DNA of 36,933 nt, taken from Alphaproteobacteria bacterium. Lineage in GTDB: Bacteria > Pseudomonadota > Alphaproteobacteria > Geminicoccales > Geminicoccaceae. Made by a program: the position numbers and the translations under genes. Below are positions 25,272-31,032 of the stretch, piece after piece. The notes beneath the pieces are model-generated. The model worked only from the letters and a program-made list of their open reading frames with translations, was not told where the DNA came from and searched no databases. Within the stretch, counting starts at the first letter, position 1. Each line of letters starts with the position of its first letter. The stretch is from assembly GCA_030431615.1 (NCBI GenBank), contig JAUIID010000027.1:1-36933 (forward strand), written 5' to 3'.

Positions 25272-25286
25272 GCCGGCGCCGGACGC

Positions 25287-26033
25287 TTAGAACAGGGGTG
25301 GCGGGGCGGCGAGGACGAGGCGGGTGATCGTCGCGTCGAGGGCGTAGAAGGACCAGTGCAGGGAATAGGCCCAGCGGAAGCCGTTGGCCGTCCGCAGATA
25401 GAGCCAGGGTGCCACGAAGCCGAAGAGGGTCGCGGCGAGCGTGAAGCGCGCGACGTAGAACGGGGAGAAGCCGTCGAGCGCCAGCAGGAGATGAAACCCG
25501 CCGAACGTGACGGCGAGACCGATGGCGATCGATTTCAGGCCGAGGCGCAGGCTGGCGGCCGTGCGGATCAGCGAGGCGACGAGGACCTGCTGGAACAGGA
25601 TGTCGGCCGACTTGGGCAGGTAGTACCAGCCCGAGGCGAACATGAACTCGGGCGGGTTCGGCGGCGCCAGCCAGGCCGAGACCGGCGGCAGGCCCGGCAG
25701 GACGAGTGCCGTGAAGAGCGCGAAGAGTACGAGGAGCGGCAGCATCGCCCGGACGTCCGCCATGACCATCCCGGGGGCGAGCCGTGCCGCAAGTGCATTG
25801 CGGAACCAGAGCAGGGCGATCGCCGTCCAGGTCGCGTAGTAGGCCGTAAAGACGAGCGGCGCGTCGTCGTAGCCGTTCTCGAGACCGAGCCTGCCGACCA
25901 GGGCGTAGTAGCCCTGGCTCGAGGCCAGCCAGAGGGCCGCCACGACAGCGAGCGTAGCCGCCAGCGTCGGCAACTGCTCGTGAAGGCCGGCTTTCGATGC
26001 GCCTATGCAGTCAGTGCTGCTGTTGCTCGTCAC
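25287..26033 (-). CDS. Multi-pass membrane protein, unrecognised (CPBP-like pattern)
   Basis: About 248 residues with six or seven hydrophobic segments. I cannot name it. The order FQQVLVASLIR, FGGFHLLLAL and HWSFYALDATITR places polar residues inside helices much as in CPBP/ABI-type intramembrane proteases, but the catalytic Glu-Glu pair of that family is absent, so activity is doubtful. Start uncertain: the frame stays open far upstream over the EF-hand gene. The first sensible start is a GTG at 26033 (MTSNSS...), which overlaps the end of the EF-hand gene by 23 bases; a TTG at 25973 would also precede the first helix. Last gene of the YHYH/b561/EF-hand operon. It converges on the UbiB-like gene. 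Confidence 0.6.
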   Translation of the reverse strand: MTSNSSTDCIGASKAGLHEQLPTLAATLAVVAALWLASSQGYYALVGRLGLENGYDDAPLVFTAYYATWTAIALLWFRNALAARLAPGMVMADVRAMLPLLVLFALFTALVLPGLPPVSAWLAPPNPPEFMFASGWYYLPKSADILFQQVLVASLIRTAASLRLGLKSIAIGLAVTFGGFHLLLALDGFSPFYVARFTLAATLFGFVAPWLYLRTANGFRWAYSLHWSFYALDATITRLVLAAPPPLF

Positions 26034-26592
26034 TGCCCTGGTCCAGTCGTCGTCGGGGACCCGCGACCTGGCGGGGAGGCGTTCGCCGACCGGCCGGTCT
26101 CGTGACGTAGAAGACCAGCTCGGAGCGCTCGAGCACCCCGTCGCCATTCTCGTCCAGTTGCGTGAACGCCAGGCGCAGCCGCTCGTCGAACTCGTCGCGC
26201 GAGATGAGCTTGTCACCATCGAGGTCATAAGATGCGAAGGACGGCAGCGCGCTGGCCGATCCGAGGGCGGAGCGTGCCCAGGTGTCATAGTAGACCGGCC
26301 GCACGGGACCGGATTTCGAAAGCAGCTGCCACTCGTGATCGATGCCGCCCCCGAGTTCCGTGCCGTCCACGAGATGATCGCCGTCGGCGTCCATGGCACC
26401 GAGGAACAGTGCTGCGGGCATGACGGCGGACCCCGTGTAGCCGGCCGCCGATGGCGCTTCGCCCCCGGGACTGGGTGGACGACGGTCCGGCCCGCCGGCG
26501 CAGGCGCTCAGTGCCAAAGCACTCCCGGCAACCAGGGCGAGGAACGCCCGCCCCGGTCCGCCTCTGGGTGACGGGTCTGGTCGGAAAGCCAT
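26011..26592 (-). CDS. EF-hand lipoprotein
   Basis: A 193-residue lipoprotein with three calcium-binding loops. The signal sequence ends in a lipobox, LALSAC, so it should be lipid-anchored at the membrane facing the periplasm. The EF-hand loops are DADGDHLVDGTE (~66-77), DLDGDKLISRDE (~123-134) and DENGDGVLERSE (~146-157); all keep ligands at positions 1, 3, 5, 9 and 12. Start: ATG 26592 places the signal peptide normally; ATG 26610 would add six residues. The frame stays open to 26847 but that part is a shadow of the cytochrome gene. It lies between the cytochrome b561 gene and the membrane-protein gene in one operon. It probably senses or buffers calcium at the envelope. Confidence 0.8.
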   Translation of the reverse strand: MAFRPDPSPRGGPGRAFLALVAGSALALSACAGGPDRRPPSPGGEAPSAAGYTGSAVMPAALFLGAMDADGDHLVDGTELGGGIDHEWQLLSKSGPVRPVYYDTWARSALGSASALPSFASYDLDGDKLISRDEFDERLRLAFTQLDENGDGVLERSELVFYVTRPAGRRTPPRQVAGPRRRLDQGSDEQQQH

Positions 26593-26641
26593 GCGGAAGT
26601 ATCGCTCCATCGGAGACGCCAGCGCGGTGAAGCGGCCGGGC

Positions 26642-27223
26642 CTATCCCTTCGCCGTCGCATGGCGACCGGACACCATGCGCACCAGCGTGCCATCATGGT
26701 CGATGAAATGGTGCCTGAGTGCCGCCGCCATGTGGGCGGCGACGAGCAGCGACAGGGCGATGGCGGTCCAGCCATGCACCGCGCCGCCGAGACCGGCGAG
26801 CCAGGGAATCTCCGCAAGGGCGGGGATGGCGAACCAGCCGAAGACATCGACGGGGCGGCCCCGGAAGACCGAGGCGACGAGCCCCGAGAGCGGCATCAGC
26901 ACGACCCCGGCAAGCAGCGCCCAGTGCACGGCCTTCGACGCCCGTTCCTGCCATTTCGGCATGCCCGGAATGCCGGCCGGGAAGCCCTGGACCAGGCGCC
27001 AGGCCACGCGCCACAGCCCGTAGCACAGCACCAGCACGCCGATGGCCTTGTGAATGCCGATCAGGGAGCCCTTGGCTTCACGCGGCAGGTCGCCGTATGC
27101 CAGATAGAAGCCGAAGAAGAGCATGAAGATGACTGCTGCGGCGATCAGCCAGTGATTGAAGCGGGAAATCCGGTCGTAGGTGGCGAGGTCGGACAATGAC
27201 GGGTTCCTCCTTGCGTTGTTCAT
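26642..27223 (-). CDS. Cytochrome b561 family membrane protein
   Basis: A 193-residue protein with four membrane helices and the di-haem b histidines of the prokaryotic cytochrome b561/YceJ family: FNHWLIAAAVIF, IGIHKAIGVLV, KAVHWALLAGVVLMPLSG and AVHGWTAIALSLLVAAH. Members pass electrons between quinones and periplasmic acceptors such as superoxide. Start has two candidates. The ATG at 27223 overlaps the TGA of the YHYH gene (ATGA coupling). An in-frame TTG at 27196 (MSDLATYDRIS) has a perfect AGGAGG nine bases upstream and may be the real or a second start. It is the second gene of the minus-strand operon, and its role is presumably tied to the secreted YHYH protein. Confidence 0.9.
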   Translation of the reverse strand: MNNARRNPSLSDLATYDRISRFNHWLIAAAVIFMLFFGFYLAYGDLPREAKGSLIGIHKAIGVLVLCYGLWRVAWRLVQGFPAGIPGMPKWQERASKAVHWALLAGVVLMPLSGLVASVFRGRPVDVFGWFAIPALAEIPWLAGLGGAVHGWTAIALSLLVAAHMAAALRHHFIDHDGTLVRMVSGRHATAKG

Positions 27224-27699
27224 CGGGGACGGGGCGGGCGCACGGACGCATCACGGGCCGCTTCGGCGTCCGCCAGCACGCAGCCGGCTTCCGCCTTGAG
27301 GCAGCCGAGGATCCGGTTCGAGCCCGCCGCACCGGCGTGGTAGTGGTAGGGCAGGCCATCGGTCTCGTGCCCATGGCAGGCATCGAGCCCTTCCGGGGCC
27401 CGGCCATCGGCGAACAGGTGGGAGAAGATGGGATAGCCGTCCATGGCGATGCCGATCTGCCCGCCATGCGCGGCCACGACGTCGCCATCCACTCCTGCCA
27501 GCGTCGTCGGCGCGCCCGACAGGCAATCGGTCACGGCATGGTAGTGGTAGCCGACATGCAGGTTCGCATGGCCCTCGCAATCGTCGAAGGGGGCGATGGT
27601 GCAGGCGGGCGCGTCCGCCTGCGCGGCGGCCGGGCCGACCGCCACGAGAGCGGCGGCGAAGAACGGAGAAAGGGAAGGTGTCGTTATCCTCTGGAGCAT
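27220..27699 (-). CDS. Secreted YHYH-domain protein
   Basis: A 159-residue exported protein with a YHYH domain. The signal peptide is LSPFFAAALVAVGPAAAQA. The mature part carries two copies of the hallmark tetrapeptide (VGYHYHAVTDC and LPYHYHAGAAGSN), two His-rich Cys motifs (DDCEGHANLH and LDACHGHETD) and IGIAMDGYPIFS between them; the many His and Cys residues suggest metal binding and disulphides. It lacks the N-terminal half often seen in longer members of the family. ATG 27699 has AAGGCGG about six bases upstream; a longer frame would need a TTG. First gene of a four-gene operon, divergent from the MarR gene. No biochemical role is established for the domain. Confidence 0.82.
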   Translation of the reverse strand: MLQRITTPSLSPFFAAALVAVGPAAAQADAPACTIAPFDDCEGHANLHVGYHYHAVTDCLSGAPTTLAGVDGDVVAAHGGQIGIAMDGYPIFSHLFADGRAPEGLDACHGHETDGLPYHYHAGAAGSNRILGCLKAEAGCVLADAEAARDASVRPPRPR

Positions 27700-27724
27700 G
27701 AGAACCGCCTTGCAACGAAACAAC

Positions 27725-27743
27725 GATTAGCATATTAACTATC
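27725..27743. promoter_or_regulatory. AT-rich promoter/possible MarR operator in the divergent gap
   Basis: The 47-base gap between the YHYH and marR starts contains GATTAG (27725-27730), CATATTAA and CTATC (27739-27743), an imperfect inverted repeat in otherwise GC-rich DNA. Its position only four bases before the marR ATG at 27747 suggests autoregulation and control of the divergent operon (inference). Confidence 0.4.
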
Positions 27744-27746
27744 AAC

Positions 27747-28214
27747 ATGCAAATCAAGCCGCACGATTTCCACGGCCTCCTGCACAGCGCCGACCTCGTC
27801 GAGGCGGAGCTGCGTCGCAAGCTGGCGCCGCTCGGGATTCAGCCTCGTCAGGCCCGCGTGGTCGAGGCGCTGGCCCGGATGGGCCCCGTTTCCCAGGCCG
27901 ACCTCGCCTCGGCGTTCAGTGTCACCCCCGCCAGCATGAGCACGATGACGGATCGGCTGCTGACCGCCGGCTACATCACGCGCGCGGTCGATCCGGCATC
28001 ACGCCGGCAGAACGTTCTCGAACTGACGGACAAGGGGCGCAGCCTGCTCGCCTCGATCGACGAGGTATGGGCGTCGGTCGACGACACCATCCGGGCCGTG
28101 CTGGGCGACGACGCGGCAACGTTCTTCCGTCTGGCGCGCCGGCTGCGCGACGGCCTGGGCGGCACCATCCCGGGTATCGGGAAGGCCGGCACCCATGCCC
28201 GAGGGACCGATTGA
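27747..28214 (+). CDS. MarR family transcriptional regulator
   Basis: A 155-residue winged-helix regulator. It shows ARVVEALARMGPVSQADLAS, then the recognition segment FSVTPASMSTMTDRLLTAGY and the wing ITRAVDPASRRQNVLELTDKG, the full MarR pattern with the conserved DPASRR-type wing tip. MarR proteins usually repress a neighbouring gene until a small molecule or oxidant binds. It is transcribed away from the YHYH operon with a gap of 47 bases and is its likely regulator. No cysteine is visible, so a direct thiol redox switch is unlikely. The 3' end overlaps the start of the broken gene that follows by 20 bases. Confidence 0.9.
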   Translation: MQIKPHDFHGLLHSADLVEAELRRKLAPLGIQPRQARVVEALARMGPVSQADLASAFSVTPASMSTMTDRLLTAGYITRAVDPASRRQNVLELTDKGRSLLASIDEVWASVDDTIRAVLGDDAATFFRLARRLRDGLGGTIPGIGKAGTHARGTD

Positions 28215-28521
28215 CCCCGTTCCGTCTTACACCCCAGGATCTCGCCAGGGACTGCCCATACGACTTCGAAACACGACGCTCGCCGGCCTCGTTCTTGCCC
28301 TGACGGTGCCGGCCGCCGATGACGCTTCTGCCCACCCCGACCCGACTGCCTTTGCCCCGACCGCCCTCGTCGAGCCGGCCGAGGTGGTCGACTGCACCCT
28401 GGAGAACGGCACAAGGACGCGCTGACACCGGATCAGGGTCGGCTACCTGCCCGAGGGGCTGGAAATCGGCGTCTCCGAGCGCGAGCTGCGCACCGTCCTG
28501 CCCCCGCCACCCCGTCGGTGA
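28195..28521 (+). pseudogene. Broken secreted-protein gene, remnant of a YHYH-family N-terminal region
   Basis: From ATG 28195 the frame gives a signal-like hydrophobic stretch (LAGLVLALTVPAADDASAH), then EPAEVVDCTLENGTRTR and a TGA at 28423-28425. Reading on in the same frame gives HRIRVGYLPEGLEIG before the sense is lost and a second TGA arrives at 28519. From memory of the family, long YHYH proteins carry a CTLENGT...C+...GLEIGPFCP type of segment here, so the TGA seems to replace a Cys codon and the rest is frameshifted or deleted. This is a remembered resemblance, not an alignment. The intact YHYH gene on the other side of marR matches only the C-terminal part of such long proteins. A selenocysteine reading is considered and judged unlikely. 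Confidence 0.5.
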
Positions 28522-28530
28522 ACCGACGGG
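28511..28530. other. 8-bp perfect hairpin with TGAA loop
   Basis: CCCGTCGG (28511-28518) and CCGACGGG (28523-28530) are exact inverted arms. The hairpin lies between the broken gene and the convergent beta-propeller gene. There is no U-run; it may be a leftover or a bidirectional 3' end. Confidence 0.35.
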
Positions 28531-28581
28531 CGGCGACGACGGGGACGATCACTCCTCGGGCTGGAGGGACGCCGCGGCGCT

Positions 28582-30657
28582 CTAAGGCGCTTCGACCGGG
28601 CCGATCAGGGGCGTGCGCACCGGCTTGGCCACGCCGAGGAAGACCACCATGGTGCTGGCGGAAAATTGCGTGGATTGCGCCTCGGGCGGGACCTCGCTGA
28701 ATCCGGCCGCCGTGTCGTTCCAGCTATTGGCCACCCACGCATTGCCGGCAGGATCGAGGGCGAGGGCCGAGATGGTCTGCAGGCCGCCGATATAGCCGCC
28801 CTGCGGCGAGATCGGATCGCCGGTCGCGGCACCCGGCGGGCAGGTTTCCGTGCGCACGCCGCAGAGCTGGGTGACGGAATGGCTCGTGGAGCTCGCGATC
28901 CAGACGTTGTCATTGCCGTCGATGGCAACACCCCAGGGCCCGGTGATGCTGCCCCCTGCATTGTAGGGGCCCAGCACCGTGCCATCGGGGCGGATCATAG
29001 AGACATCGCCGCCGGGGAACTCGCTGATGATGTCCCAAAGATCGACCCACATGTTGGCCGCCCGTTGGTCGGCCGACATCGAGCCGGCGAGCGCCTCGGC
29101 CTCGCTCTCGAGCTTCTGCTTGACCAGCGCCAGCTTCTCCAGCGTGCCAGGATGCCCGACAAGGTTGCCGACCCAGGCATTGCCCTGGCTGTCGATGGCA
29201 ATGGCGTGCGGGCTGTAGCCGACCTCGATTTCCTCGGCATTGCCAGGGTCGCCGGCCGTGAAGCGGGTGACGGTGTTGGAGCCGCTGTTGGTGATCCAGA
29301 TCCGGTCCTCTTGGTCGATGGCGATGCCGAAGGGTTCCTTCACCTGCAGCGTGCCATCCACGGGTTTGCCGTCGACCGTGCGGCCGAGAATGCGGCCCTT
29401 CGAGACATCGCCCCCGGGAAGGTGGACGATCTGGTCGTTGCCGTTGTCGACGGTCCAGACATCGCCCTTCGGGGTGACGATGATGCCCTGCATCTCGGCG
29501 AGCTTGCCGTCGAAGTCGTAGCCGGCCTCGGGCGAAAGGGGCTCTCCCGTCCTCCGGTCCAGCAGGGAGATCGTGCGACCGATCAGGTTGGTGGCCCAGA
29601 CCTTGTCATCGGTGGAGATGGCGATGCCCCAGCCGGGACTGTCGAGTCCGCCGCCGCGATAGCCCGTGATCGCCGGCGAGAGCGGCTTGCCGTCCGGCGC
29701 GAATTTGCCGACGCCGCCGCCGAACTGCTGGAAGATCGTGGTCTGCGAGCCGACCAGCCAGTTGTTGTTGGTCCAGAAGTTCCCCTCGCCATCGATGGCA
29801 GCACCGCCAACCGCGAAGAAGCCGCCGCCGGCATGGACGAGCGACAGCGTCCACGCACTGGGCGCGAAGGCGAGGTAGGGGACGAGGGATACGTCCCGGT
29901 ACCGCTTGCCCTCCGGGACCGGATAGAATGCATCCAGGAGCCCGAAGAGCCTGGCAGCATTGTGCCAGGGATGGCGGGCAATGTTCCGTGCCGCGGAAAG
30001 CGTGTCGGTCGGTGCCGTTCCGTCCGGCGGCGTGGCCGCGTCGAAGAGCCTGGCGCAGGCGTCCGGAATCGCCGTGATGCAGGCCGAGAGCAGGAGCCCC
30101 AGCGTGTTCATCCTGGCGAGGGTCGTGGTCCGTGGCCCGTTCAGCGGGTTCACGATGACCGGCCCCAGGCCGCCCGTTTCGAGATCCACCAGGCTCGGCA
30201 CGTTGCCGGCGGCGATCCGCAGTCCGAGCGCATTGCCGCGCAACCCGTTGCCGTCCAGGAACTGCGCGCCGGCCCAGGCGGAGGCCACCGTGGTGAGCTC
30301 GTTGATGGTCACGTGCTCCGGGGCCTCGGTCCCCAGCACGGCCAGCAATGACGTCGCCGGATTGGGCCCCTTGGCGGCCGCCGACCGCGCCTCGCCGCCC
30401 GCCGCACTCAGGTAGAGCACGCCGGCGTCATCGCCGCCATTGGCGATCTCGAGGTCGTAGCGACCGTCGTCATCCGTCGTCGCCTCGCCGAGCTTGCGCG
30501 GAGCTTGCGGCCCCGCCAGCCAAAGGGTCACGTCCGCACCGGCAATCGGCGCACCGCCGGCCTCGACCCGTCCTTCGATACGATCCGCGGCCGACGCTGA
30601 TACGGAGATGAGAGCGGCTGCGATGGCAAGGGCGGCGCGTCTGGCGGTTTGCGACAT
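28582..30657 (-). CDS. Secreted NHL/Vgb-like beta-propeller protein with N-terminal carboxypeptidase-regulatory-like domain
   Basis: A 691-residue exported protein. The signal peptide is RRAALAIAAALISVSASA. Residues ~23-105 look like a carboxypeptidase-regulatory-like beta-sandwich (IEGRVEAGGAPIAGADVTLW, then TTDDDGRYDLEI). After a helical linker, residues ~230-670 contain repeated blade motifs: GAAIDGEGNFWTNNNW, GWGIAISTDDKVWATN, PFGIAIDQEDRIWITNSGSN, HAIAIDSQGNAWVGN, PWGVAIDGNDNVWIASS and SALALDPAGNAWVANSW. This is the NHL / virginiamycin-B-lyase-like propeller pattern, usually a binding platform rather than an enzyme. ATG 30657 is chosen because the signal peptide begins there; the frame stays open upstream across the rpsU terminator. 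It probably acts in the periplasm or outside the cell; its partner is unknown. Confidence 0.82.
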   Translation of the reverse strand: MSQTARRAALAIAAALISVSASAADRIEGRVEAGGAPIAGADVTLWLAGPQAPRKLGEATTDDDGRYDLEIANGGDDAGVLYLSAAGGEARSAAAKGPNPATSLLAVLGTEAPEHVTINELTTVASAWAGAQFLDGNGLRGNALGLRIAAGNVPSLVDLETGGLGPVIVNPLNGPRTTTLARMNTLGLLLSACITAIPDACARLFDAATPPDGTAPTDTLSAARNIARHPWHNAARLFGLLDAFYPVPEGKRYRDVSLVPYLAFAPSAWTLSLVHAGGGFFAVGGAAIDGEGNFWTNNNWLVGSQTTIFQQFGGGVGKFAPDGKPLSPAITGYRGGGLDSPGWGIAISTDDKVWATNLIGRTISLLDRRTGEPLSPEAGYDFDGKLAEMQGIIVTPKGDVWTVDNGNDQIVHLPGGDVSKGRILGRTVDGKPVDGTLQVKEPFGIAIDQEDRIWITNSGSNTVTRFTAGDPGNAEEIEVGYSPHAIAIDSQGNAWVGNLVGHPGTLEKLALVKQKLESEAEALAGSMSADQRAANMWVDLWDIISEFPGGDVSMIRPDGTVLGPYNAGGSITGPWGVAIDGNDNVWIASSTSHSVTQLCGVRTETCPPGAATGDPISPQGGYIGGLQTISALALDPAGNAWVANSWNDTAAGFSEVPPEAQSTQFSASTMVVFLGVAKPVRTPLIGPVEAP

Positions 30658-30763
30658 CGGGTGCTTCTCGGTCCTTGTGGAGAAGGGGGCGGCGTGGAGA
30701 ACGGGGCGGCGCAGAGCGGATAGTGCTGATGGCGGAGGCTGTGGCAAGTGCGTTCCGGAATCG

Positions 30764-30790
30764 AAAAGGGCGCCCGACCGGACGCCCTTT
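30764..30790 (-). terminator. Intrinsic terminator of rpsU
   Basis: On the minus strand AAAGGGCG (30790-30783) pairs with CGCCCTTT (30772-30765), with a 10-base centre, and ends in TTTT. It lies 36 bases after the rpsU stop and is the best rho-independent terminator in the window. Confidence 0.8.
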
Positions 30791-30825
30791 GTCACTTCCC
30801 GAAGCGGGAGCGAGCCTCTATCGGC

Positions 30826-31032
30826 TCACACCTCGTCGCGTTCGGCCCGCTTGCGCATCAGCTTGCGGTAGCGGCGGATCGCCTCGGCCTTCTCGCGGGC
30901 GCGGCGCTCGGACGGCTTCTCGTAATGCCGCCGCATGCGCATCTCCCGATACAGGCCCTCGCGCTGCATCTTCTTCTTCAGCGCGCGGAGCGCCTGATCG
31001 ACATTGTTGTCACGCACCTGAACTTCGACGAT
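30826..31032 (-). CDS. rpsU: 30S ribosomal protein S21
   Basis: The small-subunit ribosomal protein S21, recognised by [20 protein letters not shown], then [20 protein letters not shown] and a basic tail (68 residues with the start chosen). S21 sits on the 30S platform and helps initiation. The odd point is the start: related proteins begin MQVLVRDNN or similar, but here the corresponding codons are GTC-ATC-GTC-GAA-GTT-CAG-GTG, with no ATG, GTG or TTG at the expected place. GGGAG lies exactly seven bases before the ATC at 31032, pointing to an AUC start. A GTG at 31017 would remove the first strand, and no in-frame ATG occurs upstream close by. A sequencing error is the other explanation. Confidence 0.85.

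Follow-up and report, generated by a model that had tools for sequence, protein, structure and literature searches.

What the genes at positions 25,287–28,214 of the window encode, and whether they belong together, is the question that this locus raises; by window we mean the whole stretch of DNA analysed, 36,933 nucleotides from a Geminicoccaceae genome (a 5.3 Mb assembly of 314 contigs). The original prediction, made from the letters alone, described four packed envelope genes with a divergent MarR regulator and read them as a metal- or calcium-aware periplasmic redox module. We located all five genes exactly where they had been placed. As claimed, neighbors among the four minus-strand genes either overlap or are separated by 49 bases at most: the YHYH and b561 genes overlap by 4 bases, 31–49 bases separate b561 from the EF-hand gene, and the EF-hand and multi-pass genes overlap by 20 bases. 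The MarR gene is indeed divergent, with 47 bases between its start and that of the YHYH gene. The features are as follows.

25272–30828, no strand assigned: island between the ABC1-kinase gene and the rpsU-like gene; absent from relatives
25287–26030, minus strand: multi-pass protein with a putative CPBP/Aph-1-like fold lacking the first catalytic Glu, GTG start; AlphaFold model, Rce1 match and hhalign
26011–26592 (or from 26610), minus strand: three-EF-hand lipoprotein, particular to the window locus; PF00036/PF13499
26642–27223, minus strand: di-haem cytochrome b561; PF01292, and E. coli CybB (5oc0) at E = 1.7e-9
27220–27699, minus strand: YHYH-A, in which a signal peptide is followed directly by the C-terminal half; PF14240 and alignment to full-length homologues
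27727–27749, no strand assigned: predicted MarR operator TTAGCATATTAACTATCAACATG, which covers the start codon of MarR; conserved upstream of MarR
27747–28214, plus strand: MarR-family regulator without cysteine; winged helix-turn-helix profiles PF12802 (49.9 bits) and PF01047; 19 of the 52 YHYH loci have an orthologue nearby
28261–28521, plus strand: YHYH-B pseudogene; tblastn (57% identity, E 9e-21) and alignment

The gene set is a MarR-controlled envelope module whose core, made up of the secreted metal-type YHYH protein, a membrane electron carrier, and the unusual multi-pass protein, recurs in marine alphaproteobacteria. We found it undescribed in the literature searched, and to that extent the statement that no system of this composition has been described stands. 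That the locus is a copy of this conserved module which arrived by horizontal transfer and has since partly eroded is, together with the workings proposed below, a reading to which we give about even odds.

The window YHYH protein is reduced to its conserved core

YHYH-A carries a signal peptide and matches PF14240 with 35.8 bits (gathering cut-off 25), as expected of the secreted YHYH protein proposed earlier, but a large internal deletion had been overlooked. The window protein has 159 residues compared with ∼325–345 in nearly every intact homologue. Alignment to full-length homologues reveals that ∼185 residues between its signal peptide and its C-terminal half have been lost, and only positions 59–110 of the PF14240 profile are matched, positions 1–58 and the upstream part being absent. 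All 12 family-invariant residues (columns taken from an alignment that includes the window copy as a row) are kept, all in the retained half; the invariant positions of the family include Asp-221, His-226, His-234, His-236, Asp-269, and Asp-288, and a conserved His/Asp/Tyr core is visible by sequence. Three otherwise conserved positions are altered, one of them from Cys to Arg. Identity to its nearest relatives is 78%, about as high as that of comparable homologues to theirs (79–83%). Because the N-terminal module is absent and a conserved Cys is lost, the window protein may not fold or work.

The stretch following the MarR gene, up to position ∼28521, is the remnant of another YHYH gene, now dead, that belongs to the paralogous type B and in which the N-terminal ∼67 residues run in frame into the last ∼17. 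A TGA at 28423–28425 occupies a conserved Cys codon; we set selenocysteine aside, because the gene has also lost some 300 residues. An intact YHYH-B is found at the same place in locus L018. On a Paracoccus seriniphilus plasmid (L117, 5097–5873), YHYH-B has suffered an independent in-frame deletion between residues ∼205 and ∼329, with the junction at a GG repeat; it removes the YHYH half and keeps the other half with its frame intact. As the window retains only the C-terminal core of YHYH-A and this plasmid only the N-terminal module of YHYH-B, the protein may consist of two separable modules.

Other set genes appear truncated or frame-shifted as well: YHYH-A in L053 (5413–6402), YHYH-B in L040 (4243–5383), b561 in L036 (6412–6627), and MarR in L019 (5119–5367). 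Such broken genes in other genomes suggest that the module is often lost. Facing the YHYH-B pseudogene is an NHL/Vgb-like β-propeller gene (28582–30660), which is likewise absent from the flanking site in relatives.

The module lies on an island absent from relatives

The flanking ABC1-kinase and rpsU-like genes lie ∼90 bases apart in the relative G013 and ∼830 bases apart in G030, which belongs to the same genus, and none of the block genes lies between them in either genome. YHYH of the window type and the multi-pass protein are absent from 30 other genomes of the order. The block was thus inserted in the lineage of the window or lost in all others sampled, and insertion is simpler. The two closest YHYH relatives, L017 and L018, come from metagenome-assembled genomes labelled Gammaproteobacteria and Acidobacteriota, pointing to transfer or to a binning error.

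Since YHYH-A is internally deleted and its sister YHYH-B is a pseudogene, the window locus is best described as an eroded copy, which raises the question of whether the operon is merely decaying and without function. We hold this to be rather improbable. The dead YHYH-B, the loss from YHYH-A of the N-terminal module and of a conserved Cys, and the broken or short genes in L053, L040, L036, and L019 would all fit; yet the frames of YHYH-A, b561, the multi-pass gene, and MarR are open, the operator is intact, and YHYH-A keeps every one of the invariant residues at an identity to its nearest relatives close to that of comparable homologues. We give very little weight to the reading that faulty assembly accounts for the gap in YHYH-A. 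The 314 contigs of the genome speak for it, but the junction shows no clean join and carries further divergence (ILGAYT to PACT), and the missing module was not found elsewhere in the genome.

The YHYH neighborhood is conserved in Rhodobacterales

We compared 52 related loci, made up of 47 contigs (from a scan of one genome per species) and 5 plasmids; the 47 contigs with YHYH relatives stem mostly from Rhodobacterales. Within 4 kb of YHYH, 19 of the 52 loci carry a MarR orthologue and 13 carry a second YHYH paralogue; the multi-pass protein is encoded in 8 and b561 in 5. In four of the last five, b561 is the next gene downstream of YHYH. This adjacency lies well above expectation (an estimated ∼0.1 in 52 loci), because genomes of the class carry only about two b561 genes on average (maximum 7). 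The order of a divergent MarR, YHYH, and b561 recurs in Roseobacter (L036) and in Tateyamaria omphalii (L043), which has the intact set, with b561 proteins 54–62% identical; in L035 (Sulfitobacter), YHYH is followed by another b561, and on the Paracoccus plasmid MarR, YHYH, and b561 precede a heavy-metal P-type ATPase. At other loci, an Lcl_C-domain protein or a ferric-reductase/FAD protein takes the place of b561, and the latter adjoins the multi-pass gene in L019 and L024. The gene that lies divergent to MarR and the operator is the multi-pass gene itself in L035, L051, and L053. Further neighbors are a HupE/UreJ-like protein in L055 and, in Acaryochloris, RND efflux and two-component genes beside YHYH. 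Taken together, there is good support for a YHYH module that is conserved and under MarR control.

A secreted four-Cys protein of ∼100 residues (REAFEAC…C…GTC…C) is encoded near YHYH in L020, L021, L022, L024, L034, L039, L055, and L120, and matched no Pfam family.

The EF-hand lipoprotein is the exception. It has a lipobox (LSAC) and three EF loops (DADGDHLVDGTE, DLDGDKLISRDE, and DENGDGVLERSE), and a motif search returned no EF-hand gene in the immediate neighborhood of the related loci, with one distant match in L036 ∼4 kb away; relatives contain weak matches at most. We therefore rejected it as a core part of the set. The conserved co-occurrence of YHYH, b561, and EF-hand genes that had been proposed as a check thus holds for the neighborhood, which recurs, but without the EF-hand gene. 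That gene would have entered the operon in the genome of the window, and calcium awareness finds no support, because the EF-hand gene is not conserved with the set.

A conserved palindrome is the predicted MarR operator

The set shares an AT-rich palindrome that immediately precedes and covers the MarR start codon, with the consensus AGTTAGTATACTAACTATTAGTATG; the predicted MarR box is AGTTAGTATACTAACT. The conserved stretch contains 24.5 bits of information over 25 columns, including 6 for the ATG, compared with 4.2 bits for a control. In the window this site is intact, and nowhere else in the 5.3 Mb genome does a match with two or fewer mismatches occur. Such a palindrome between divergent genes is what one would expect of a MarR that regulates itself and a divergent target, and we predict that it is the MarR operator. 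The window MarR contains no cysteine and is therefore not a thiol sensor of the OhrR type; it would leave the DNA on binding a small molecule rather than by thiol oxidation.

Cytochrome b561 and the multi-pass membrane protein

The window b561 scores 102 bits against PF01292 (cut-off 30.1), and 36.3 bits against the E. coli cytochrome b561 equivalog NF008566, far under the cut-off of 170. Alignment to 5oc0 places haem-ligand histidines and basic residues where expected. Counted along this alignment, the positions of His-45, His-87, His-151, and Arg-35 of the E. coli superoxide oxidase CybB (5oc0; PMC11869295), a member of the same b561 family, are kept, and that of Arg-38 is a Lys; the match to CybB is weak (40.8 bits, E = 1.7e-9), and the operon partners differ. 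A precedent in organization is LcoA-BcnA, a small operon that likewise pairs a cytochrome b561 with a secreted periplasmic protein; the secreted partner has been proposed to exchange electrons with the b561/quinone pool as a defense against oxidative damage (PMC9113575). There the partner is a YceI lipocalin, whereas here it is YHYH (PF14240), the window operon containing no YceI domain, and the window set adds MarR, a CPBP-like protein, and a second YHYH. We found nothing in the literature that links MsrQ with b561 and MsrP.

The multi-pass protein had been called unrecognised, and hmmscan indeed assigns it to no Pfam or NCBIfam family, PF02517 included; it does, however, look CPBP-like without the catalytic glutamate. 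The top structural match of its AlphaFold model (pLDDT 83.5) is Rce1 (Z 7.2, r.m.s.d. 4.9 over 175 residues, under the caution level of Z 8–13), followed by Aph-1 chains. Aligned to CPBP with hhalign, the protein gives an E value of 1.5e-4 with FxxxH in register, compared with 0.03 at best for reversed, shuffled, and other membrane protein controls. It may share its fold with the CPBP glutamic proteases (Rce1, MrtX; PMC11980579) and has the FxxxH motif in the register of these proteins, but motifs intact in those enzymes are replaced: EExxxR reads (A/V)(D/E)…Q, the first Glu being Ala or Val and the Arg a Gln, and HxxxN reads HxxxY. With the EExxxR motif altered, it is not expected to act as a protease in the known way, and the protein would represent a membrane protein of protease-type fold that has lost its catalytic site. 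It was not found in 384 other genomes sampled across the class; as the YHYH loci were themselves found via YHYH, this does not prove exclusivity. A Pseudorhodobacter turbinis plasmid (L116, 6902–8210) lacks YHYH but carries the multi-pass gene, and the gene after it encodes an MsrB with a Tat signal.

Possible functions of the YHYH module

Our best guess, with about even chances, is that the locus derives from a mobile periplasmic redox or metal-stress module in which b561 would provide the link to quinone. This guess is based on the partners of the module and on the LcoA-BcnA precedent (PMC9113575). In the intact form, MarR would sit on the palindrome over its own start codon and repress two divergent transcripts, which would carry YHYH-A, YHYH-B, and the CPBP-like protein; several lineages would add a reductase of the membrane haem or flavin kind. 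Binding of a small molecule would release MarR from the DNA. YHYH may be a metalloprotein of the periplasm whose substrate, or whose source of damage, is an oxidant or metal, b561 may shuttle electrons between YHYH and the quinone pool, and the CPBP-like protein may serve as a non-catalytic membrane partner. The window genome retains a YHYH-A with signal peptide and metal-type core, devoid of the N-terminal module, next to a dead YHYH-B. Electron transfer between YHYH and b561 is suggested through guilt by association, and most of the 52 YHYH loci have no b561 nearby.

YHYH could instead be a secreted metal-dependent hydrolase, acting for example on envelope peptide bonds, with b561 as a neighbor that has a separate job. 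The phage-tail YHYH domain has been predicted to bind Zn through three His and one Asp and to act as a hydrolase (PMC7824862), and the invariant His and Asp residues listed above are in keeping with this. The window protein belongs to the same domain family and is compatible with the predicted metal site, but it stands alone as a secreted protein and is encoded in a bacterial operon under MarR control. A model of full-length YHYH from L018 (pLDDT 88.5) found its best fold match in the YHYH protein of cyanophage S-RIM14 (E 2e-4); YHYH of the window type was not found in the phage records searched. No PDB fold, hydrolases included, matches the model with Z ≥2, nor did we find a solved relative by sequence or fold, and the recurring membrane haem/flavin reductases and the MsrB neighbor point to redox chemistry instead. 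We consider a hydrolase unlikely, and equally so a role in metal homeostasis, with YHYH as a periplasmic metal binder or sensor partner and the reductases altering the oxidation state of the metal. The P-type ATPase on the Paracoccus plasmid, the HupE/UreJ-like protein in L055, and the efflux and two-component genes of Acaryochloris would suit metal homeostasis, but such partners occur only sporadically and the window has none of them. The heavy-metal genes found at some loci are as compatible with a role in metal handling as with one in redox chemistry. Of the metal- or calcium-aware redox module first proposed, the redox part is favored by the membrane haem/flavin reductases beside YHYH and the Tat-signal MsrB beside the multi-pass gene, and the calcium part falls away.

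YHYH (PF14240) is known from bacteria, marine diatoms, and phage tails, and we found no functional study in the literature searched. Because the set is compact, is switched by MarR, includes a b561 partner, and has an operator that can be recognised, YHYH function should be testable in culturable Rhodobacterales. More speculatively, YHYH might represent a new class of secreted metalloenzymes that are coupled to the quinone pool via interchangeable membrane haem/flavin proteins, with a catalytically dead CPBP-fold partner, a dedicated MarR switch, and two separable modules shed independently by different lineages.

A second, full-length YHYH protein (PF14240, 74 bits) is encoded elsewhere in the genome of the window (L077, 5140–6276, on contig C84). 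The secreted protein after it resembles the YHYH neighbor of L051–L053 (‘VWADNWFE...GLEYIG.RRQQ.GDGG’), and a reading of the open reading frames places likely CcmB/CcmC haem-export genes next to this YHYH.
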